Source: Roseicyclus persicicus
GTDB taxonomy: Bacteria > Pseudomonadota > Alphaproteobacteria > Rhodobacterales > Rhodobacteraceae
Assembly (NCBI RefSeq): GCF_012395815.1
Contig: NZ_JAAZQQ010000001.1
Span: 620,001 to 684,000, forward strand
Reading direction: 5' to 3'
DNA length: 64,000 bases
Shown here: positions 2,790 through 13,689 of the stretch, in pieces
Numbering within the stretch: the first letter of the stretch is position 1
Layout: the number at the start of each line of letters is the position of its first letter
Notes under the pieces: generated by a model
The model's input: the letters and a program-made list of their open reading frames with translations, nothing else
Database searches by the model: none
Told to the model about the DNA's origin: nothing
Program-made: the position numbers and the translations under genes

Positions 2790-4064
2790 ATGGCCGACAG
2801 GAAGAAGCTCACCAAGACCGCGGTGGAGGCGATCGCGCCGCCCGAGGCGGGGCAGGTGCTTGTGTGGGATACCGAGCTTCGCGGCTTCGGTCTCAGGGTC
2901 TCGGCGGGTGGCGCGCGGGCCTACATCATGCAGCGCAAGGTCAACGGGCGCGACCGGCGGGTGACGATCGGCCGGGCCGACGACATGAGCGCCGAGGCCG
3001 CCCGCAAGGCCGCGCTCAAGCTTGCCGCGCAGTTCGCCGAGGGCAAGGACCCGGTGGCCGAGGCGAAGCGCCAGAAGGCTCGCCAGCTCACCCTGGCCGA
3101 CGCCTTCGACGCCTATGCGAAGGCCCCGAAGAAGAAGGGCAACGGCCGCGGAGCTCCGAAGAAGCCGCGCACGGTGCGCGACATCGAGGAGGCCGCCCAG
3201 CGCTTCGCCGATTGGCTGGACAAGCCCGTCACGGAGATTACCGGCAAGATGGTCCGCGACCGGCATGCGAAGCTCGCCGAGGCGTCGCCGGCACAGGCCA
3301 ATCTGGCCATGCGCTACCTGCGCGCGGCGCTGAACCATGTGATTGCCGACAGCGACGATGAGGACGACCCGATCCTCAAGCGCAACCCGGTCGACCGGCT
3401 GAACCGGCTGAACCAGTGGGCGCCCGCCATGCGCAAGACCGGGCATATCCCCGAGGACCGGCTGGCCGACTGGATCGCGGCCGTCCGGGGCGAGCTGGTC
3501 GGGCTCAAGCACGACGCCGAGCTGCGCGACGCGCTCCTGTTCATGCTCCTGACCGGGGCGAGGCGCGCCGAGGTGCTGGGCAACCCGCAGGATGGATACG
3601 CACCGCTGCGCTGGGCCGATGTGGACCTCGACCGGCTGACTGTCACCTTCGAGAATACCAAGAACAGGACCGACCACGAGCTGCCCCTCTCCGACCAGCT
3701 GGCCGACCTCCTGCGCGCCCGCAAGGACGTGGCCCGCGGCGAATTCGTTTTCGCTGATGCCGAGGGCGTGGTGCCGACCGACCTACGCAGCGCGCTGGCG
3801 CGGCTGGAGCGGGCGACCGGCTTCCGGGTGACGGCGCACGACCTGCGGCGCACCTTTGCCACGGTGGCCGCCCGCCTCGACATCTCGGCGTACAAGCTCA
3901 AGCGGCTGACCAACCACATCTCGGGGGGCGACGTGACGGCCGGGTATGTGCAGGTCACGACCGAGGATCTGCGCGACGCGATGCAGCGGATCGCCGACTA
4001 CATGCTCAGCCCCGGCCGCCGGAAGGCCGAGAACGTGGTGCAGCTCCGGGGGGTGGCGGGGTGA
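2790..4064 (+). CDS. int: Tyrosine recombinase (P4-type phage integrase)
   Basis: Site-specific recombinase that would integrate and excise the element at tRNA-Cys. The N-terminal region (about 1-90) has the DUF4102-like arm-binding fold of P4-type integrases (LTKTAVEAI, DTELRGFGLRVSAGG). A core-binding region spans about 100-190 and the catalytic domain about 215-400. Visible catalytic residues: Arg258 in TGARRAEVL, His350 and Arg353 in HDLRR, His376 in LTNH, Tyr386 in TAGYV. At 424 aa it has the normal family length and no damage. It sits 160 bp from the left attachment repeat and its stop codon overlaps the next GTG start. Confidence 0.95.
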   Translation: MADRKKLTKTAVEAIAPPEAGQVLVWDTELRGFGLRVSAGGARAYIMQRKVNGRDRRVTIGRADDMSAEAARKAALKLAAQFAEGKDPVAEAKRQKARQLTLADAFDAYAKAPKKKGNGRGAPKKPRTVRDIEEAAQRFADWLDKPVTEITGKMVRDRHAKLAEASPAQANLAMRYLRAALNHVIADSDDEDDPILKRNPVDRLNRLNQWAPAMRKTGHIPEDRLADWIAAVRGELVGLKHDAELRDALLFMLLTGARRAEVLGNPQDGYAPLRWADVDLDRLTVTFENTKNRTDHELPLSDQLADLLRARKDVARGEFVFADAEGVVPTDLRSALARLERATGFRVTAHDLRRTFATVAARLDISAYKLKRLTNHISGGDVTAGYVQVTTEDLRDAMQRIADYMLSPGRRKAENVVQLRGVAG

Positions 4065-4516
4065 GCGACATCGCTGATCTGGCCGACCCGATCGAGGTAT
4101 GGGAGATGGCGCTCGGCCGGCCTGCAGCCCTGGTCGAATTGCTTGAGGGCGGCGGGCCAATTTCGGCCCGCACGCGCGCAGCTCTGGCGCTGTACTTCCG
4201 CGGCGAGCTCAAGATGAAACGTGGGCGCCCGGGCGGTCAGGCCATCGCTTCCGTGTGGGCGCGCGAGATGGCCGAGTTCGAATACTGGCGGATCGCTCAG
4301 CGGCTTCGACAGCGGCGACGCTTCAAGGGCAAGCGAGATTGGCTGATCGAAAAGGTGGCGCTTCGGCATGGCCTGACCTTTGAACAGCTCAGGGACTTCA
4401 TCAATCGAAAGGACAAGCCGAAGAGCGGGCCTACATTCGGTGAGGGCGAGCGGTATGCCCTTTGGGCGGCACGGAATGGGCGTGATTTTTCGTTGAAGAA
4501 AGACAGCGGCGGCTAA
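4061..4516 (+). CDS. Hypothetical element protein, 151 aa
   Basis: I do not recognise the family. The GTG start at 4061 overlaps the integrase stop codon (4062-4064), so the two are probably co-translated. The protein is soluble with no signal or membrane segment. Its middle (about 45-110) is very basic (KRGRPGG, RLRQRRRFKGKRDW), followed by a short HTH-like helix pair (ALRHGLTFEQLRDFIN). That would suit a DNA-binding accessory protein, but this is inference only. Confidence 0.7.
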   Translation: MSDIADLADPIEVWEMALGRPAALVELLEGGGPISARTRAALALYFRGELKMKRGRPGGQAIASVWAREMAEFEYWRIAQRLRQRRRFKGKRDWLIEKVALRHGLTFEQLRDFINRKDKPKSGPTFGEGERYALWAARNGRDFSLKKDSGG

Positions 4517-4552: not shown

Positions 4553-4756
4553 ATGACAGACACCCACAACACCCTGCCGAAGCTGCGCACGACCGTTCAG
4601 GCAGCGCAGTACCTTGGCGTCAGCCCTAAGTGGCTGGAACGCGACCGCATGAACGGGGCGACCGTCCCCTTCATCCGCGTCGGGCGCCATGTCCGCTACA
4701 GCGAGACCGACCTGGCCGCCTTCCTATCCGCGAACCGCGAGGGGGTGGCGGCATGA
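4553..4756 (+). CDS. Excisionase-like helix-turn-helix protein
   Basis: A 67-aa protein with a MerR/excisionase-type winged HTH (HTH_17): VQAAQYLGVSPKWLERDR is the helix pair, and GRHVRYSETDLAAFL is the wing and final helix. Proteins of this form act as recombination directionality factors or as AlpA-type activators in integrative elements. Its place two genes after the integrase fits either role. The stop codon overlaps the next start as ATGA. Which role it plays cannot be read from the sequence. Confidence 0.8.
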   Translation: MTDTHNTLPKLRTTVQAAQYLGVSPKWLERDRMNGATVPFIRVGRHVRYSETDLAAFLSANREGVAA

Positions 4757-4953
4757 ACATCGAGCTTGCGAACGCACGGGCCACCAAGATCGCTTTGCTG
4801 ACCGGCACCATGCTTCAGGCCGAAGCAGAGCTTGCCGCGGGGCGGATCCCGCCTCACCGGGTCGAAGCCGTGCGCGTCGCGTCCGATGCGATGCTGTCGG
4901 TGTGCCGAAAGCAGGCCGCCGAGCTGGTGAAGGCCCTGGCCCCCCAGAAATAA
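4753..4953 (+). CDS. Small hypothetical protein, 66 aa
   Basis: The start ATG overlaps the preceding stop codon as ATGA, which supports translation by coupling. The protein is predicted to be mostly helical, soluble and rich in alanine, with two conserved-looking segments (GRIPPHRVEAVRVASDAML and VCRKQAAELVKAL). I do not recognise the family. A GC-rich hairpin follows directly, so it probably ends the early transcript. Confidence 0.6.
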   Translation: MNIELANARATKIALLTGTMLQAEAELAAGRIPPHRVEAVRVASDAMLSVCRKQAAELVKALAPQK

Positions 4954-4956
4954 CAA

Positions 4957-4980
4957 CCCCCGCCGGCGGCACGGCGGGGG
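4957..4980. terminator. GC hairpin after the early genes
   Basis: A perfect 8-bp stem (CCCCCGCC / GGCGGGGG) with an 8-nt loop begins 3 bases after the stop codon of the 66-aa gene. There is no T-tract, so it may be a weak or factor-dependent terminator. Confidence 0.4.
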
Positions 4981-5019: not shown

Positions 5020-5943
5020 ATGGCACCGCGCGCCGCCGGGGGCAACTCCCACGGCACAGCGAGCAGAGATATGGTTTATCAGGCCAGCCCGATAAAGCGG
5101 GCGCGAGCGACGAAAGACGAGATGGAGGAGCGCGCGGCGTTCCTCATCGACTACGCGAGGGCGCACGGCCCCGTGACAGTGCGGGGCCTATTCTACGCTG
5201 CGACAACGGCCCGGATGCCCGGCATCGAGAAAAGCGAGCTGGGGTATGCCAAGGTACAGTCCCAGGTGCTGAAGCTTCGGCGCGAGGGCCGCATGCCGTA
5301 CAACGCCATCGCCGACGCGACCCGGTACATGCGCAAGCCGCGCACCTTCGACGGGGTGGAGGATGCGCTCCAGAGCACGGCGCAGCTCTACCGCAAGGCC
5401 CTGTGGGCAGAGGCCGGCGAAGAGGTGGAGATCTGGGTCGAGAAGAGCGCGCTGGCCGGTGTGCTCTACCCGGTCACAGCGGAGTACGATGTACCCCTGA
5501 TGCCGACCGGCGGTTACACGTCCGAGACCTTCGCCCATGAGGCTGTCGACAGGATGAGGCGCACCGAGCGCACCCTGGTGATCTACAGCCTGTACGATTT
5601 CGACCGGAGCGGGAAGGACGCCGAGCTGTCGTTGCAGGAGAAGGTCGAGAGGTTTGGCGCTGAGTACGGGGTGCCGGTGGAGTTCAACTCCCTCGGGCTC
5701 AGCTTCGAGCAGGTGCAGGCCATGGACCTCCCGACCCGCCCGGCGAAGCGCAAGACCGTCGCCGACCAGCGGTGGCCCTATTCCTTCGCGGCCGAGCTGG
5801 ACGCGATCCCGCCCCATACGCTGCGCGAGATGGTGCGCGACGCGATCGAGGATCACCTCCCGCGGTGGCGGCTCGACCAGCTCAAGAGGATCGAGGCGGA
5901 AGAGCGCGCCCTGATGATGCGCTTCGCCGAGCAGGTGGCATGA
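5020..5943 (+). CDS. Spo11 / topoisomerase VI subunit A-like protein (Mini-A type)
   Basis: Type IIB topoisomerase A-subunit-like protein, 307 aa, encoded without a B (ATPase) subunit. The winged-helix part has TVRGLFY (53-59), matching the catalytic-tyrosine motif of Spo11/Topo VI-A (TVRDIFY in yeast Spo11), so Tyr59 is the candidate nucleophile. A TOPRIM domain follows: Glu141 in IWVEKSALAGVLY and Asp193/Asp195 in LYDFDRSG. A-subunit homologues without a partner B gene (Mini-A) are known from mobile elements. The gene ends 1 bp before the replication-type gene, suggesting a role in element replication. An alternative start is Met18 (5071). The fold call is strong; the activity is unknown. 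Confidence 0.8.
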   Translation: MAPRAAGGNSHGTASRDMVYQASPIKRARATKDEMEERAAFLIDYARAHGPVTVRGLFYAATTARMPGIEKSELGYAKVQSQVLKLRREGRMPYNAIADATRYMRKPRTFDGVEDALQSTAQLYRKALWAEAGEEVEIWVEKSALAGVLYPVTAEYDVPLMPTGGYTSETFAHEAVDRMRRTERTLVIYSLYDFDRSGKDAELSLQEKVERFGAEYGVPVEFNSLGLSFEQVQAMDLPTRPAKRKTVADQRWPYSFAAELDAIPPHTLREMVRDAIEDHLPRWRLDQLKRIEAEERALMMRFAEQVA

Positions 5944-5944
5944 C

Positions 5945-6496
5945 ATGGGCCGCGACCGGCGAAACGAAGGCGCCCCGGAGCACTTCACCAAGATGCTGCG
6001 GGTCAACATGGAGGCGCCCGCCTGGCGCGCGCTCAGCGTCCATGCGCAGGCGCTTTACCCATGGCTCAAGCTCGAATGGAAAGGGCCTCAGGCGAACAAC
6101 AACGGGCGTATCGAGATGTCAGTGCGACAGGCGGCCGACCTCCTCGGGTGCTCGCGGGAAACAGCCGCGCTCGCGCTGCGCGACCTCCAGCGCAAGGGGT
6201 GGCTGGCGGTGACGCAGGCGGCATGCCTGGGGCTCAAGGGCGCTGCCCGCGGCAATCAGTATGAGCTGACCGAGATTGCGCTACCGGGAGAAGGCCGAAG
6301 GCCGCGGAACCTGTTCCGCGACTGGAAGCCCGACCGCGAATTCCCCTTCGCCGACATCCGCACCAACAACCCCTCCGGCAGGAACGGAAGGCAGAAGCCT
6401 GTCATGCGTAGCAGGACGCCACGTCATGCCCAGCAGGACGAAGCGGAACACCACGTCATGGCAGGCAGGACGTCAGAGGCGGCCACGTCATGCTGA
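5945..6496 (+). CDS. HTH replication-type protein of phage/element
   Basis: A 183-aa protein starting 1 bp after the Spo11-like gene. The N-terminal half is a winged-HTH domain of the kind found in phage and plasmid replication proteins (ALSVHAQALYPWLKLEW, then SVRQAADLLGCSRETAALA and LRDLQRKGWLAV as HTH and wing). The C-terminal 45 residues are polar and disordered, and their codons overlap the iteron-like repeats at 6401-6546, so part of this tail may be shaped by DNA function. An initiator or helicase-loader role is inferred from domain and position. Confidence 0.65.
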   Translation: MGRDRRNEGAPEHFTKMLRVNMEAPAWRALSVHAQALYPWLKLEWKGPQANNNGRIEMSVRQAADLLGCSRETAALALRDLQRKGWLAVTQAACLGLKGAARGNQYELTEIALPGEGRRPRNLFRDWKPDREFPFADIRTNNPSGRNGRQKPVMRSRTPRHAQQDEAEHHVMAGRTSEAATSC

Positions 6497-6546
6497 GCAG
6501 GACGAAAGGCCCCGAAAATCGCCCGGCACGTCATGCTGAGCAGGAC
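6401..6546 (+). repeat. Iteron-like direct repeats, possible replication origin
   Basis: Five direct copies of a 20-bp unit, consensus cacgtcatgctgagcaggac, with GTCATG at 6401, 6423, 6455, 6487 and 6530. Spacings are 22, 32, 32 and 43 bp, about 2, 3, 3 and 4 turns of B-DNA, so all copies lie on one face of the helix. Spacings are not multiples of 3 and the array runs past the stop codon at 6496, so it is not a protein repeat. Position at the end of a replication-type gene fits an iteron origin. Confidence 0.6.
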
Positions 6547-6630
6547 ACCCTTATCTACCAGCCCCATGGGGGCGCGACCTCTACGCCCTGCGCTCTCCTA
6601 CCCGACGCATCGACGGCAGGGGCGCGCGTC

Positions 6631-6997: not shown

Positions 6998-7366
6998 GTG
7001 CCCAAACCCGTGGTCCCCGACCGCTTCGAAGCGGGATACCTCGACCGGATGGACGGCCGCACCGCGCTGGCCGCCGAGATGCGCGCCCGGTGGCAGGAGC
7101 TGACCGACGACCTGGGCGGGGCTGACCGCATGTCCTATGCCAAGCGCAGCCTGTGCGAGCGTGCCCTGTGGCTGGAGCACTGGATACGGGAGGCCGAGCG
7201 GGCGCTGGCCGAGGGGCGCCCCGAGGACTTCGACGTGTCCCGGTGGGTGTATGCCAGCAACTCCCTGCAAGGCATCTTCGCCAAGCTGGGCCTCGACCGG
7301 GTGGCGCGCGACGTGACCGACCTGCGGGAGTACATGGCGAAGGCCAAGGCGGGCGGCGATGGCTGA
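6998..7366 (+). CDS. Probable terminase small-subunit-like protein
   Basis: A 122-aa helical, charged protein with a GTG start preceded by GAGAAAGG. It overlaps the start of the large terminase gene by 8 bp. The position is where phages keep the small terminase subunit, which recognises DNA for packaging. I see no clear HTH; the region SYAKRSLCERALWLEHWIR and the following helices are all that stand out. The call therefore rests mainly on gene order. It could instead be a phage protein of unknown role. Confidence 0.5.
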   Translation: MPKPVVPDRFEAGYLDRMDGRTALAAEMRARWQELTDDLGGADRMSYAKRSLCERALWLEHWIREAERALAEGRPEDFDVSRWVYASNSLQGIFAKLGLDRVARDVTDLREYMAKAKAGGDG

Positions 7367-8753
7367 CGGCTTCACCATCCTCGACGCCATGACCGACCCG
7401 GCGCTGTTCGGCGACCAGTTCGGCGGGCCGTCCTTCGCGGGCTGGCGCGCCCTCCTGGCGGCCTTCTATGGCCTCGACCTGACCGACGAGGACCGGGCGC
7501 TGGTGGCGTCCATCACCGGGCGCGAGGAGGCGACACCGGACACCCTGCGCGAGCTGTGGCTGGCTGTGGGCCGGCGGGGCGGCAAGAGCAACGTGTCGGC
7601 GCTGGTTGCGGGCTTCGAGGCGGCCTTCCGCGATCACCGGGACCGGCTGTCACCGGGCGAGTGGGCCACTGTCCTCCTGATCGCGGCCGACCGGGCGCAG
7701 GCCCGCACCCTGATGCGCTACGTCCGGGGCCTGTTCGAGAACCCCATGCTGCGCCGCATGGTGGTGCGGGAGACCGAGACCGGGCTGGAGCTGTCCAACC
7801 GCTGCGCCATCGAGATCGGTACGGCGAGCTTCCGGTCGGTCCGCGGCTACACGCTGGCGGCCGTGGTCTGCGACGAGATAGCCTTCTGGCAGGTCGAGGG
7901 GGCCTCGCCTGATGCCGAGATCATCGCGGCTCTTCGTCCTGCCCTAGCGACGCTGGACGGGCGGCTGGTGGCCCTGTCCTCGCCCTACGCGCGGCGGGGC
8001 ATGCTGTGGGAGACCTACCGCCGGCACTTTGGGGGCGAGAGCGGGCGTGTGCTGGTCGCGCAGGCGCCATCGCGGACGATGAACCCGACGCTGCCCGAGC
8101 GGGTGATCGAGGAGGCCATGCGGGAGGACCCGGCGCGGGCCAAGGCCGAGTACCTGGCCGAGTTCCGCACCGACATCGCGTCGCTGATCGCGCCCGAGCT
8201 GATCGAGCAGGCGACGCGGCCGAAGCCGCTGGAGCTGCCCCCGGTGCGGGGCGAGCGGTACGTCGCCTTCGTGGACCCTGCGGGCGGTGGCGCGGACGAG
8301 TTCACGCTGTCGATCGCGCACCGGGAGGGCGACGCGGTGGTGGTGGACCTGGTACGGGGCGCCCATGGGAGCCCGGCGCAGATCGTGGAGGAATATTCGT
8401 CGCTCCTGAAGCGGTACGAGCTGCGCGAGGTGACGGGGGACCGGTACGCAGGCCGCTGGCCGCGCGACGAGTTCCTGCGCTGGGGCATCCGGTACGAGGT
8501 CAGCGAGCTGGACCGGTCGGCGCTGTACCTGGAGCTCCTGGCGGCGATGAATTCGGGGCGGGTCGAGCTGCCCCCTTGTCCGCGGCTGGCGCGGCAGTTG
8601 CAGGCGCTGGAGCGCCGCACGGGCCGCAGTGGGCGGGACATGGTGGATCACCCGCCGGGCGGTCACGACGACCGGGCGAACGCGCTTGCCGGTGTGGCGG
8701 CGCTGGTGACGGCACCGCGGCACTTCTGCCGGGTGGCCGAATTGAGGCTGTAG
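7359..8753 (+). CDS. Phage terminase large subunit
   Basis: ATP-driven DNA-packaging motor and nuclease, 464 aa. The ATPase domain has Walker A GRRGGKS (71-77), Walker B AVVCDE (168-173) and a coupling motif VALSSPY (204-210). The C-terminal RNase H-like nuclease shows the expected acidic residues: Asp306 in FVDPAGGG, Asp361 in TGDRYAG and Asp437/438 in HDDRANAL. Full length and undamaged. It is followed by scaffold and capsid genes with no portal gene, which is unusual because the portal normally sits directly after the large terminase. Confidence 0.93.
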   Translation: MADGFTILDAMTDPALFGDQFGGPSFAGWRALLAAFYGLDLTDEDRALVASITGREEATPDTLRELWLAVGRRGGKSNVSALVAGFEAAFRDHRDRLSPGEWATVLLIAADRAQARTLMRYVRGLFENPMLRRMVVRETETGLELSNRCAIEIGTASFRSVRGYTLAAVVCDEIAFWQVEGASPDAEIIAALRPALATLDGRLVALSSPYARRGMLWETYRRHFGGESGRVLVAQAPSRTMNPTLPERVIEEAMREDPARAKAEYLAEFRTDIASLIAPELIEQATRPKPLELPPVRGERYVAFVDPAGGGADEFTLSIAHREGDAVVVDLVRGAHGSPAQIVEEYSSLLKRYELREVTGDRYAGRWPRDEFLRWGIRYEVSELDRSALYLELLAAMNSGRVELPPCPRLARQLQALERRTGRSGRDMVDHPPGGHDDRANALAGVAALVTAPRHFCRVAELRL

Positions 8754-8771: not shown

Positions 8772-9296
8772 ATGGCTGACGACGACGACAAGGACGGGCT
8801 GGAGCCCAGCGGTCTTGTGGCGAAGAACAAGGAGCTCCTGGCCGAGGTGAAGGGCCTCAAGGCTCGCGTAAAGGAGCTGGAGGAGGAGCTGGGCAAGGCC
8901 GCCGGCCGCGCCGAGGTGGCCGAGGCCGAGGTGCGGCGGATCACGCTGGACGAGCCGGTGGAGGCCGTGCTGGGCGACCTGTTCGCGGTGAAGCTGAAGT
9001 ACGTGATGCCCGACCTGCGCGAGCACTTCGACTTCCGGCTTGAGGACGGCGCCGTGCGCTTCGTGACCGCCGAGGGCGAGCCGGTGAAGATCGAGGAGGC
9101 CGGCGGCAAGCGTGACGCGCAGTTCACGGCCTCCGATGTGCGCCGGGCGCTGGAGGCCCATGGCGGCTTCGACCAGGTGCTGGTTTCCGAGTTCAAGGGC
9201 GGCTCCGGGAAGCCTCCGGGGTCCAACTCCGGCGGCATCCGAGTTCCCCCAAAGGACCGGCAGGCGAAGGTTGAACCGCGATTCGGCCTGCGGTAG
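8772..9296 (+). CDS. Probable capsid scaffolding protein
   Basis: A 174-aa acidic protein lying between terminase and major capsid genes. Residues about 15-60 form a strong coiled coil (LLAEVKGLKARVKELEEEL, then A/E-rich heptads). A globular middle follows and the tail is basic and disordered (KPPGSNSGG to the end). Coiled-coil plus basic tail, and location immediately before the coat gene, are typical of scaffolding proteins that guide procapsid assembly. I do not recognise a named family, so the function is inferred. The 130 bp after it contain only the capsid leader. Confidence 0.6.
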   Translation: MADDDDKDGLEPSGLVAKNKELLAEVKGLKARVKELEEELGKAAGRAEVAEAEVRRITLDEPVEAVLGDLFAVKLKYVMPDLREHFDFRLEDGAVRFVTAEGEPVKIEEAGGKRDAQFTASDVRRALEAHGGFDQVLVSEFKGGSGKPPGSNSGGIRVPPKDRQAKVEPRFGLR

Positions 9297-9426: not shown

Positions 9427-10425
9427 ATGGCTGTCGTCCAACTCGCGGACGTGATCGTCCCTACCGTATTCACCGACTACGTGGTGCAGAACACCATGGA
9501 GACCAGCGCTCTGGTGCAGGCCGGCATCGTGGCGCGAAACGCGGCGATGGAGCAGCAGCTCCAGGCCGGTGCGGACTCCTTCGCCGTTCCCTTCTGGAAC
9601 GACATCGCCGACGACGAGGCGAACATCACCAACGACAACCCGGCCTCGACCGCGACCCCGCGCAAGATCGGGACCGGCAAGCAGGTGGTCCGCAAGAGCT
9701 TCCTGCATAATTCCTGGTCCGCGATGAACCTGGCGAGCGAGCTTGCCGGCGCCAACGCGCTCCAGCGCATCCAGGACCGCGCGGCGGCCTACTGGACGCG
9801 GCAGCTCCAGCGCCGGCTGATCTCGTCGCTCAACGGCATCCTGGCCGACAACGTGGCGAACGACAGCGGTGACATGGTGGTGGACATCTCCGGCGAGACC
9901 GGGGCCGCGGCCGTGTTCTCGGCGTCTGCGGTGATCGACGCCGCCGCGACCATGGGCGACCAGATGGGCGCCGTCTCGGGCATCGCCATGCACTCGGACG
10001 TCTACACGCTGGCGCTGAAGAACGACATGATCGAGACCATCCCGGACAGTCAGGGCGGCATGATCCGCACCTTCCGCGGGATGGCTGTGATCGTGGACGA
10101 CCTTCTGCCCGTGTCGAGCGGCGACTACACGACCGTCCTGTTCGGGCCGGGGGCCGTGGGCTGGGGTCTGACCGCGCCGCGCATCGCGCAGGGCACCGAG
10201 GTGGAGAACCTGCCCGGCGCCGGCAACGGTGGCGGCCAGCAGATCCTGCACTCGCGCATCAACATGGCGATGCACCCGGCGGGCTTTCAGTGGCTCGAGG
10301 GGTCGGTCGCGGGCGAGAGCCCGACCATCGCCGAGCTGGCCCTGGCGGCCAACTGGAACCGCGTGGTGGAGCGCAAGGCCGTGGGCCTCGCCTTCCTGAT
10401 CGCCCGGGTCGAGGCGGCCGCCTGA
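9427..10425 (+). CDS. Phage major capsid protein
   Basis: A 332-aa coat protein. The start (VQLADVIVPTVFTDYVVQN), the following SFAVPFWNDI stretch and the long central helix are typical of a coat family found in many siphophages (P22/HK97-like fold). No protease domain or cleavable delta region is obvious, in keeping with assembly on a separate scaffold. ATG at 9427 is preceded by GAGGTG. The stop codon overlaps the next ATG. It does not look like the capsid protein of the Rhodobacter gene-transfer agent. The protein is complete and uninterrupted. Confidence 0.88.
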   Translation: MAVVQLADVIVPTVFTDYVVQNTMETSALVQAGIVARNAAMEQQLQAGADSFAVPFWNDIADDEANITNDNPASTATPRKIGTGKQVVRKSFLHNSWSAMNLASELAGANALQRIQDRAAAYWTRQLQRRLISSLNGILADNVANDSGDMVVDISGETGAAAVFSASAVIDAAATMGDQMGAVSGIAMHSDVYTLALKNDMIETIPDSQGGMIRTFRGMAVIVDDLLPVSSGDYTTVLFGPGAVGWGLTAPRIAQGTEVENLPGAGNGGGQQILHSRINMAMHPAGFQWLEGSVAGESPTIAELALAANWNRVVERKAVGLAFLIARVEAAA

Positions 10426-10691
10426 TGACCCGTGATCCATTCGATGATCGCCGGTCGGGTCTGAACGACCCGGCCGAGGGCCTGATCCAGGTCACGCCCT
10501 CCGACACGACGGATCTCGGCGTCATCTGCCGGGGCCTCTACGTGGGCAACGCTGGCGACGTGGCGGTGCGGGCCTCCGACAACACCGAGGGGGTTTTCGA
10601 GAACGTGGCGGCAGGGACTTTCCTGCCGGTGCGCGCCCGCCGCGTGCTGGAGACCGGGACGACCGCGACCGGCATCCTCGGGCTGTACTGA
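10425..10691 (+). CDS. Spike base protein, RCAP_Rcc01079-like
   Basis: An 88-aa protein whose pattern is that of the head-spike base of the Rhodobacter capsulatus gene-transfer agent: ITPSD-like VTPSDTTDL near residue 25, GLYVGNAGDVAVRA in the middle, AAGTFLPVRARRVL and then TTATGILGLY at the end. In the GTA this protein anchors spikes on the capsid. It follows the capsid gene here with overlapping stop and start codons, which supports a head-surface role. Identification is from remembered family pattern, not a search. Confidence 0.7.
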   Translation: MTRDPFDDRRSGLNDPAEGLIQVTPSDTTDLGVICRGLYVGNAGDVAVRASDNTEGVFENVAAGTFLPVRARRVLETGTTATGILGLY

Positions 10692-10966
10692 TGGCCCGGG
10701 GCGCCGAGATCGCCGGGTTGGAGGTCCGGGACATCGAGCTGTACCAGCCGCCGCAGGTGGTGGACAGCTTCGAGGTCCTGGCCTCCTTCACCCTGCGGAT
10801 CTGGCCCTTCAAGATGCGCGGCTGCGAGCTGGCGCGGGCTGAGAACGGCAAGATCGTCCCATGGCTTCCCGAGGACGTGTTCCTCCTCAAGGCCAAGGTG
10901 CGCGACGTGCTGACCCACGAAATCCTCGCGCGCTTCCGCGACGCGGGCCACGACCTCAAGGAATAG
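10691..10966 (+). CDS. Small phage structural-region protein, unknown function
   Basis: A 91-aa protein whose ATG shares a base with the preceding stop codon. The core FTLRIWPFKMRGCELARAE, then a lysine- and proline-containing turn and VFLLKAKVRDVLTHEI, suggests a small beta-barrel plus helix. Similar short proteins with a GC-E-L-x-R motif occur in phages near capsid genes, but I know no assigned function. By position it might be a head-completion or connector protein. There is no signal sequence or membrane segment. Confidence 0.6.
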   Translation: MARGAEIAGLEVRDIELYQPPQVVDSFEVLASFTLRIWPFKMRGCELARAENGKIVPWLPEDVFLLKAKVRDVLTHEILARFRDAGHDLKE

Positions 10967-10970
10967 GCCG

Positions 10971-12452
10971 ATGGTCGATATCGCAACGCTCGCCATCGCG
11001 GTGGACAGCACGCGGCTGCGGCAGGGCACCCGGGACCTTGACCGCATGGGCGACCAGGCAACGGCCACGGGCGCGCAGGTCGCGCGCTCGGCGGCGCAGA
11101 TGACCAACGGCTTCAACACGACCGCCCGTGCGGCCCAGGGCATGGGCGGGGCAGGTCTGCGCAACACCATGATGCAGCTCTCCCAGGTCGCCCAGCAGGC
11201 CAGCGCGACCGGCCGGCCGCTCCAGGCGCTGGCGATCCAGCTTCCCGACCTGACGCTCGCCTTCGGGCCCCTGGGCATTGCGCTGGGCGCGGCGGCGGGC
11301 GCCTTCCTGCCCTTCATCGCCAACGCGCTCCGGGCCGAGGATGTGACAGGCGACCTGATCGCTGAGCTCACGCAGATGCCGGGCGGGCTAAGTGCCATGC
11401 GGGCGAGCATCGCCGAGCTGTCCGATCTCCAGGACGCCTACACGCAAGCCATTCACGCCAGCGGCGGCGCCTCGACCGGGCTGGCCGCCCGCGTGGTTGC
11501 CAACTCCCGGACCGAGTTCGAGGCCCGGCGCGAGGTGCTGGAGGTTGAGATGCAGCTCCTGCGCATCCGGGGCGAGGAGCAGCGCATGCAGCTCCAGAAC
11601 CTCCAGGACCAGCAGCGAATGCAAATCGGCAACCGGATGGAGCAGATCGAGTTGTTCCGAGGTCAGGAGCGAGATGGGTACTGGTCCCCGATCGGGGCGC
11701 CGAACATGGGGCTTGGGACCGAGCTGCACGGGTCCGCGGTGGACCGCATGCACGTCCTGGCGATGCAGCGGCTCAGGGCCGAGCTGTCCCTCACGGAGCT
11801 GGCGCTGGAAGAGGCCGACGCGGCGCTGGAGGCGAGCTTCCTCGGGCCGGGTGAGGCCGGCGACCTGCCGGGCACAGGGGGCGGCCGTGCGCGCGCCGCG
11901 CAACTCGCCGACGAGGTGGAGCAACTGACCGAGGCGATGGAGTTCCTGGAGGCCCAGCAGCAGACGATGCAGGACGGCTTCCTGGACGCCATCGTGGCGG
12001 GCGAGGACCTGACCGAGGTATTCCAGCGGCTGGCGGCCACCATCGCCCGCGCGGCGCTGGAGGCAGCCTTGTTCGGCGACGGTCCCCTCGCCGGGCCCCA
12101 GATGGGCGGCGGGCTCCTCGGGCCGCTGTTCTCCAGCATCTTCGGCGGCTTCCGCGCAGGCGGCGGCCCCGTGTCCTCTGGTCATGCCTACATGGTGGGC
12201 GAGAACGGCCCGGAGCTGTTCGCTCCGCACGCCCCTGGCACGGTGGTGCCTGACGTCGGCGGGAACAGCGGCCCCGGCGTCACGGTGAACGTCATCAACA
12301 ACTCGGGCGAGCAGGTCGAGACGCGGGAAAGCCGCGGCCCCGATGGCCAGCGCCTCATCGAGGTCGCAGTGGGCCGCGCTATCGCCTCGGGCAGGTTCGA
12401 CCGCGCGCTCGGCTCCCGCTACGGCAGCAAGCCCCAAGGAACGCGCCGCTAG
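10971..12452 (+). CDS. Tail tape-measure-like protein
   Basis: A 493-aa protein. The start VDIATLAIAVDSTRLRQGTR and following coils, the hydrophobic segment at about 90-115 (LGIALGAAAGAFLPFIANAL), the long coiled regions and the C-terminal GGPVSSGHAYMVGENGPELF motif are all hallmarks of tape-measure proteins, which set tail length and help DNA entry. It is short for this family; at about 1.5 angstrom per residue it would specify a tail near 74 nm. No tail tube, chaperone or baseplate genes accompany it. The stop codon interlocks with that of the convergent gene (CTAG at 12449-12452). Confidence 0.8.
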   Translation: MVDIATLAIAVDSTRLRQGTRDLDRMGDQATATGAQVARSAAQMTNGFNTTARAAQGMGGAGLRNTMMQLSQVAQQASATGRPLQALAIQLPDLTLAFGPLGIALGAAAGAFLPFIANALRAEDVTGDLIAELTQMPGGLSAMRASIAELSDLQDAYTQAIHASGGASTGLAARVVANSRTEFEARREVLEVEMQLLRIRGEEQRMQLQNLQDQQRMQIGNRMEQIELFRGQERDGYWSPIGAPNMGLGTELHGSAVDRMHVLAMQRLRAELSLTELALEEADAALEASFLGPGEAGDLPGTGGGRARAAQLADEVEQLTEAMEFLEAQQQTMQDGFLDAIVAGEDLTEVFQRLAATIARAALEAALFGDGPLAGPQMGGGLLGPLFSSIFGGFRAGGGPVSSGHAYMVGENGPELFAPHAPGTVVPDVGGNSGPGVTVNVINNSGEQVETRESRGPDGQRLIEVAVGRAIASGRFDRALGSRYGSKPQGTRR

Positions 12453-12697
12453 GCCGCCAAGCTCTCGATCTCTGCCTCGCACACATACTCATGGGTCAGC
12501 CGGATCACGTCTTCGACACTCAGGCTATAAGGTACCGGCGACATGCCATCCGCCTCGATCCACGACCCGACGACTTCATTGAAGACGAGGATCGCGTAAC
12601 CCTCTCCACGCTTTACGAGCTTGAAGCCGATCTTGGCTAGCCGTTTCTGCATGCGCTTGGCGAGACGTTCTTCGGTGGGGGTCTTAAAGCTCTTCAT
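12449..12697 (-). CDS. Small basic hypothetical protein, 82 aa
   Basis: The start at 12697 is chosen because AAAGGG lies about 10 bases before this ATG and the longer frame upstream looks non-coding. The N-terminus is strongly basic (TEERLAKRMQKRLAKIGFKL), followed by a beta-rich half that seems to hold a short conserved domain (GEGYAILVFNEVVGSWIEAD). I do not recognise it by name; similar small proteins occur in rhizobial and rhodobacteral elements. The 178 bp between this gene and the repressor hold no gene that I can see. Confidence 0.65.
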   Translation of the reverse strand: MKSFKTPTEERLAKRMQKRLAKIGFKLVKRGEGYAILVFNEVVGSWIEADGMSPVPYSLSVEDVIRLTHEYVCEAEIESLAA

Positions 12698-12875: not shown

Positions 12876-13109
12876 TCAAGGATCGAGCTTCCTGAGCCTC
12901 ACGCCGGGGCCGCCCCCGTTCTCGGGGATGAACTCGACACCGGCCTCGACCAGGGCGCGCTCGATGGTCGCGTGCGCGTATCCAGGTCCGGTGGCTTCCG
13001 TCTCCGCGCGCGTGACGGTGTTCCGGTGGACGCCAGCATGCTCGGCGAGGTCGCGCACCGACCAGTTGAGGAGCGCACGCGCCGCCCGAATTTGTGCACT
13101 TGTCACCAT
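12876..13109 (-). CDS. XRE/cI-type helix-turn-helix repressor
   Basis: A 77-aa DNA-binding protein. The HTH is plain: IRAARALLNWSVRDLAEHAG then VHRNTVTRAETEATGPG, ending in the VEFIPENGGGPGVRL wing common in small alphaproteobacterial XRE proteins. It is transcribed against the rest of the element and faces a rightward gene across a 51-bp gap. A 19-bp repeat pair, one copy of which covers its own start codon, suits autoregulation. It is the natural candidate for the element's repressor. The start could also be an in-frame ATG 12 codons upstream. Confidence 0.85.
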   Translation of the reverse strand: MVTSAQIRAARALLNWSVRDLAEHAGVHRNTVTRAETEATGPGYAHATIERALVEAGVEFIPENGGGPGVRLRKLDP

Positions 13110-13614: not shown

Positions 13615-13663
13615 TTGGAGGCGAGTACCGGAATCGAACCGGTGTGCACGGATTTGCAATCCG
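13615..13663. repeat. Right attachment-site repeat within tRNA-Cys
   Basis: Identical over 49 bp to 2583-2631. It covers the tRNA-Cys sequence from the 5' side of the anticodon stem to one base past the CCA end, the usual crossover region for tRNA-targeting integrases. The copy here keeps the tRNA gene whole. Confidence 0.93.
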
Positions 13664-13689
13664 CTGCGTAACCACTCCGCCAACTCGCC
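13616..13689 (-). tRNA. tRNA-Cys (GCA)
   Basis: A 74-nt cloverleaf on the minus strand. The acceptor stem GGCGAGT pairs with ACTCGCC, the discriminator is U and CCA is encoded. The anticodon loop reads TTGCAAA, giving anticodon GCA, and the T loop is TTCGATT. The gene is intact because the element supplies an identical 3' half. Confidence 0.97.

Follow-up and report, generated by a model that had tools for sequence, protein, structure and literature searches.

Mini-A is the name given to type IIB topoisomerase-like proteins that are encoded by viruses and plasmids (Takahashi et al. 2020, as cited in PMC8185306, PMC7614492 and PMC11302465), and the protein of Pseudomonas phage NP1 is given as an example in a figure legend of PMC7614492. 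In the available excerpts of the same three reviews no activity is reported for any Mini-A, archaeal members are stated to be wholly uncharacterised, and the activities given for the related Topo VIII are only weak. Topo VIII is, according to the accessible part of PMC7614492, a type IIB relative found on plasmids and integrated elements. Its B (ATPase) part mostly lies in the same chain, whereas the protein studied here, which resembles it in belonging to a mobile element, has no such part in its 307 aa. The gene was identified in a 64,000-nt stretch of the Roseicyclus persicicus genome, the whole of which is referred to below as the window.

The open reading frame at 5020–5943 (forward strand) is open throughout, as first described. 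Met18 (position 5071) is probably its true start, because the longest ORFs of four relatives (L016, L021, L022 and L023) begin at the corresponding place; residues are numbered here from 5020. L-numbers denote loci of relatives fetched for comparison, and G-numbers the genomes that were searched. A profile search linked the protein to PHROG 6247 ('DNA topoisomerase'; E=3.4e-41); no match was obtained in Pfam at E≤1 or in NCBIfam at E≤0.01. A tblastn search at E≤1e-3 returned 70 phage and 37 plasmid records, the Haloarcula californiae icosahedral virus 1 (HCIV-1) among them. The Mini-A of NP1 is 34.3% identical to the window protein over 77% of the query (tblastn, E=1e-25), and a homologous gene of the archaeal plasmid LC711082.1 is annotated as 'Topo Mini-A/DNA topoisomerase VI'. 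Since the NP1 protein is named Mini-A and the window protein is homologous to it, the product of 5020–5943 is, judged by its sequence, a Mini-A, a Topo VI-A/Spo11-type protein, and it adds one member to an already named family. The two proteins share a length of about 300 aa, a tyrosine, the TOPRIM Glu, Asp and Asp residues, the lack of a B subunit and a location in a mobile element. Unlike the described case, that of the window resides in a capsid-gene-bearing satellite integrated at a tRNA-Cys gene, adjoining an initiator gene with iterons; searches of the open-licence literature, limited to the terms used and including passages of PMC12324425, turned up no paper reporting a Mini-A in such a setting.

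The identification was extended to the level of the fold. An AlphaFold2 model of the window Mini-A, built from 64 input sequences, had a mean pLDDT of 90.1 and a pTM of 0.80. When this model was compared with 350,542 PDB chains using Foldseek, the six best matches were all Topo VI-A chains (M. mazei and M. jannaschii), with E values ranging from 1.0e-4 to 2.6e-3 (five at E≤1e-3) and identities of 9–14%. TM-scores for these matches were only 0.29–0.37, and the rmsd was approximately 17–18 Å over long alignments, presumably because the two domains of the modelled protein are oriented differently from those of Topo VI-A. A fold search of BFVD gave one match below 1e-3, which is nameless. Comparisons of sequence profiles with PDB sequences were inconclusive, and the identification therefore relies on the fold. 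When 27 Mini-A proteins were combined into a profile, the top-ranking sequence was M. jannaschii Topo VI-A (1d3y), at an E value of only 0.13, with the Asp-x-Asp motif in register and the tyrosine likewise, the latter in a second, negative-scoring stretch; this match was lost with a 64-protein profile, and nothing relevant was found with the window protein alone.

Conservation of the putative active site was assessed in an alignment of 134 sequences: that of the window, ten from annotated records among the 107 matched phage and plasmid records, and 123 obtained from 124 loci after one had been dropped for its length. Arg55, Tyr59, Glu141, Asp193 and Gly198 are each present in all 134, whereas Asp195 is replaced by Asn in a single sequence and kept in the other 133; the set contains near-copies, and NP1-like proteins (the best 80 of 597 relatives from that scan) weigh heavily in it. 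The corresponding residues of M. jannaschii Topo VI-A are Tyr103 and Asp249/Asp251. Values of dN/dS (NG86) for the Mini-A genes were 0.037/0.335 between L002 and L015 and 0.19/1.2 between the window and L002. The initial annotation had proposed a Topo VI-A-like protein with Tyr59 as candidate catalytic residue and Glu141, Asp193 and Asp195 as the acidic residues, and had mentioned the Mini-A family. It is apparent that the proposal agrees with these data: homology to NP1 identifies Mini-A as the right family, the model has the winged-helix and TOPRIM fold of Topo VI-A and Spo11, the absence of which was to count against the idea, and the four residues, variability of which among close homologues was likewise to count against it, are invariant or nearly so.

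The predicted absence of a B subunit was also borne out, in that none could be recognised. The host genome, which is 99.88% complete, gave no match at E≤1 to Topo-VIb_trans (PF09239). It gave none at E≤1 to TP6A_N either, so that the protein, although Topo VI-A-like in fold, failed the profile search for Topo VI-A that the initial annotation had suggested, and differs in this respect, as in its low identity to the fold matches, from Topo VI-A and Spo11. In 14 control genomes TP6A_N was found in six and Topo-VIb_trans in seven, each scoring above the cut-off in four. No B part is fused to the window protein, in which no Pfam ATPase domain occurs. A B partner may yet exist that has diverged beyond the reach of PF09239.

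The Mini-A gene lies in an element of 11,032 bp, measured from repeat start to repeat start, which is bounded at a tRNA-Cys gene by perfect direct repeats of 49 bp. The left att copy (2583–2631) corresponds to the 3′ part of tRNA-Cys, and the right copy (13615–13663) overlaps the intact tRNA-Cys gene (13616–13689, reverse strand). Unless otherwise stated, the genes of the element are on the forward strand. They begin with a tyrosine integrase (2790–4064; PF00589 at 9.9e-14, Arm-DNA-bind_3 at 3.4e-15 and phrog_1 at 2.4e-46), a hypothetical protein of 151 aa that has no family match (4061–4516), an AlpA/excisionase-type HTH protein (4553–4756; HTH_17 at 5e-9 and the excisionase family phrog_1840 at 1.3e-5) and a small ORF ahead of Mini-A that is known as a reading frame only (4753–4953). 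A perfect 9-bp G+C-rich hairpin, noted by eye, is situated between this ORF and Mini-A (4957–4980). Beyond Mini-A and the initiator-like gene described below are a small gene with no family match, placed where a terminase small subunit would be expected (6998–7366), the terminase large subunit (7359–8753; phrog_2 at 4.6e-24), a head scaffolding protein (8772–9296; phrog_206 at 1.3e-7) and the major capsid protein (9427–10425; phrog_247 at 1.6e-97 and Gp13-like at 2.4e-7). The capsid gene is followed by two small proteins defined by their reading frames (10425–10691, with a 38% identical match in L197, and 10691–10966), a tape-measure-like protein of 493 aa (10971–12452; phrog_8892 at 3.6e-13), and, on the reverse strand, a small ORF (12449–12697, a reading frame) and an HTH-repressor-like small protein (12876–13109), named by eye, which has tblastn matches in L023, L025, L188 and L192. 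The scan of ten element proteins, which did not extend to the smallest ORFs, revealed neither a portal nor a head protease nor a lysis gene.

The integrase and the perfect repeats at tRNA-Cys confirm that the element is integrative, as had been proposed; its capsid and terminase genes make it more specific than that, and on its gene content it looks like a phage satellite. The tape-measure-like protein is short for a tail ruler, and no other tail gene was recognised among the scanned proteins. Capsid and terminase genes with no recognised portal were also seen in L149 and L150, in which some of the ORFs were scanned, and the window capsid protein has five viral-contig relatives, on contigs of 4–11 kb. 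The tRNA-Cys region was examined for a conserved empty site in three genomes of the same genus, but the histidine kinase found to the left of the element was absent from the stretches read. In one genome of the same genus (G492, contig C23) a second att-like copy is located approximately 22 kb from the tRNA-Cys gene, and the site therefore looks like a hot spot of integration.

Among described satellites, the capsid-forming cfPICI are the most similar, and they carry a portal and a head protease. The window element resembles them in its integrase, AlpA-type gene, own terminase and capsid genes and small size. It differs in that neither portal nor protease was recognised among the ten proteins scanned and in that Mini-A and a tape-measure-like gene are present; it is also smaller, at 11 kb, than the 14 kb given as the cfPICI average in PMC10803314. 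One related element, L185, has no Mini-A match; it does possess a portal and a protease, as well as an integrase, terminase, capsid and an initiator of the same family. Two large proteins, of approximately 410–470 aa and 870 aa, occur together in L018 (8735–12594), L025 (6896–10890) and L184; the pair is common to integrated elements with and without Mini-A, and that of L018 has no PHROG match.

A single base separates the Mini-A stop codon from the start codon of the next gene (5945–6496, forward strand), which encodes a winged-helix protein resembling replication initiators. It matches phrog_270 ('replication initiation protein') at 6.4e-4 and HTH_Crp_2 at 7.9e-6, the latter with a score of 26.2 bits, just below the cut-off of 27. 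Over the end of this gene lie five iteron copies on the forward strand (6401–6549), which constitute a putative origin; their starts are spaced at 22, 32, 32 and 43 nt, close to whole helical turns. The 20-nt iteron has three matches in the window at up to three mismatches, as compared with a mean of 0.00 in 100 shuffles. These observations agree with the initial annotation, in which the gene had been placed beside a replication-type gene and an iteron-like array. The gene order, with iterons behind, recurs in relatives: arrays at the matching place show spacings of 22, 32 and 44 in L002 and L015 and of 22 and 32 in L020 (with its near-copy L041), the iteron sequences differing in each case; L025 has there a 40-nt repeat in two copies, 55 nt apart. 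The same initiator family adjoins two types of Mini-A that are approximately 29% identical, those of the window and of L025.

Homologues of the initiator were detected in 35 of the 295 family genomes at E≤1e-6, the host genome included. In eight of these, again including the host, the initiator is at least 49% identical; Mini-A stands beside it in three and not in the other five (G125, G288, G260, G074 and G274), where the initiator is 49–59% identical and Mini-A was found neither in the genome nor in the 12–18 kb surrounding the initiator. A required role for Mini-A in iteron replication was therefore rejected. The initial annotation had suggested a nicking, cleaving or decatenating role in replication of the element; any such role would have to be a dispensable one.

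Mini-A itself was detected at E≤1e-10 in 11 of the 295 family genomes; across the order, 14 of 390 genomes gave a match at E≤1e-8, the host being counted in both. Among relatives Mini-A stays while the neighbouring module varies. In a tree of 30 Mini-A rows, whose neighbour labels were assigned by hand, the neighbour was a Rep protein in six, structured RNA in six, Prim-Pol in four, a Toprim primase in four, AAA_25 in three, D5 in two and DUF3987 in one, so that one of seven neighbour types was found in 26 rows; none was recognised in the other four. The label changes 16 times on the best tree, 13 of whose 27 inner branches are weak, as compared with a mean of 20.7 when labels were shuffled (0 of 200 shuffles gave so low a number), and the labels are thus partly clustered. 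The tree left out the copies L041, L194, L206, L222 and L224, together with L123 and its copy L207, L042, the G436 match and the phage loci L043–L122 and L126–L146. Of seven viruses whose neighbourhoods were read, five (NP1, BKO1-3, RDJL Phi 2, Delta and Pam3) have Mini-A among replication or nucleotide genes, the NP1 neighbours including a Sak4-like annealing protein and a Cas4-domain exonuclease. The other two, 118970_sal1 and HCIV-1, have mostly hypothetical neighbours, one of those in 118970_sal1 being of ThyX type. Among three plasmids read, that from Streptomyces has dnaE and lexA near Mini-A, and the neighbours in LC711082.1 and a Paenibacillus plasmid are mostly hypothetical.

Related satellites have a non-coding block that is flanked on one side by Mini-A (or another small gene) and on the other by the connector and terminase genes. 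The block is approximately 330 nt long and contains a structured RNA with a core of about 190–220 nt; loci are L124 (960–1490), L125 (925–1450), L196 (10880–11300), L199 (10818–11330), L195 (10860–11079) and L206–L224. An alignment was made of 20 of the 28 loci that have an 18-nt core motif, L179, L180, L183, L206, L207, L209, L222 and L224 being left out; the motif is invariant because it served as the search key. The consensus has 41 pairs, with 97.9% of cells paired as against at most 47.4% when slid by 1–3 columns, the structure having been derived from the alignment on which it was scored. Thirteen pairs are changed on both sides, and none of 500 shuffles scored as high on any measure. 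Folding of single sequences was no better than that of shuffles (z of -0.08 and 1.00), and the case for a structured RNA therefore rests on covariation. Rfam gave no match at gathering thresholds in seven loci scanned, six of which carry the RNA. The RNA was found in 8 of the 295 family genomes at E≤1e-5; the host genome is not among them, and the window gave no match at E≤1.

Five loci (L208, L209, L213, L216 and L223), for which 1.7–6 kb of upstream sequence was at hand, have the structured RNA without Mini-A; the idea that Mini-A is the sole replication protein of these satellites was therefore dropped. Directly upstream of the RNA is a conserved protein of about 86 aa (L213, 3141–3401; L216, 2783–3043; L223; L209; and L196, 10608–10868, the last located by eye), which occurs in elements with and without Mini-A and, in the single instance scanned, matched nothing in Pfam. 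In L219, a contig of 10,865 bp, pieces of the block are found at both ends (10580–10677 and 128–335), and this contig could be a circular or terminally redundant molecule.

A-type subunits cut both strands of DNA, the tyrosine of one protomer acting with the metal site of the other. As the tyrosine and the acidic residues are kept in nearly all sequences and no B subunit is in sight, ATP-independent double-strand cleavage by a homodimer is the simplest reading. Such a dimer would make Tyr59-linked double-strand breaks, with Mg2+ held by Glu141, Asp193 and Asp195; it would do so without an ATPase subunit or ATP, and perhaps rejoin the ends. In many elements Mini-A is next to replication genes, which suggests as its substrate the replication intermediates of the element, be they supercoiled, catenated or joined molecules. 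The optional occurrence of Mini-A suggests an accessory protein, able to serve with any replication starter that the element has. We thus lean, by a modest measure, towards Mini-A being a catalytically intact A-subunit-type enzyme, carried by a capsid-gene-bearing satellite, that would act as an accessory by B-independent double-strand cleavage on the element's replication intermediates.

The same lack of a recognisable B subunit, and hence of the means for strand passage, would suit a protein that starts recombination in the manner of Spo11, its irreversible breaks in element or helper DNA beginning recombination-dependent replication or the formation of concatemers for packaging, with no topoisomerase-like rejoining. 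The Sak4-like and Cas4-domain proteins near the NP1 gene, and the terminase genes in the window element and many of its relatives, are consistent with this. Apart from the integrase, however, the ten window proteins scanned included nothing recognisable as the product of a recombination gene, and many relatives have a primase or initiator of their own, so that replication need not begin from breaks; a recombination starter consequently seems rather unlikely. JetD of the Wadjet system also belongs to the Topo VI-A-type nuclease superfamily, and two of three Mini-A proteins have weak matches to the JetD model in their TOPRIM part (NP1, E=0.0014; L025, E=2e-4), as might be expected if Mini-A cut the DNA of competing plasmids, helper phages or the host. 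The window protein is the one without such a match, three other window proteins scanned with PADLOC likewise have no Jet match, and in the five tailed phages noted above Mini-A is found among replication or nucleotide genes, all of which makes interference improbable.

That Mini-A is a functionless phage remnant, left in a degraded prophage that has lost its portal and tail genes, would account for the lack of any recognised portal or protease, and of any tail gene except the tape-measure-like ORF, among the ten scanned proteins. Against this, the named genes are open, the 49-bp att repeats are perfect, dN/dS is low among relatives, the catalytic tyrosine is kept in all 134 sequences and compact relatives recur. 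Decay is accordingly a very improbable explanation.

Accessory B-independent cleavage, the reading favoured here, might be carried further. Mini-A could be a general-purpose break-and-rejoin enzyme, independent of B, that satellites and phages attach to any starter (an initiator with iterons, a primase, a Prim-Pol, a RepA-type ATPase, a D5 helicase or the structured-RNA module), and with which even very small elements could resolve what their replication produces, independently of host gyrase or Topo IV; we advance this tentatively, as a possibility that we would not expect to prevail. The gene studied here is small and intact, and the 11-kb element around it has defined ends and a probable origin; it is hence a clean place in which to ask what Mini-A does without a partner. 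The answer bears on the way in which a Topo VI-A module functions when its ATPase partner is missing, and hence on the origin of Spo11.
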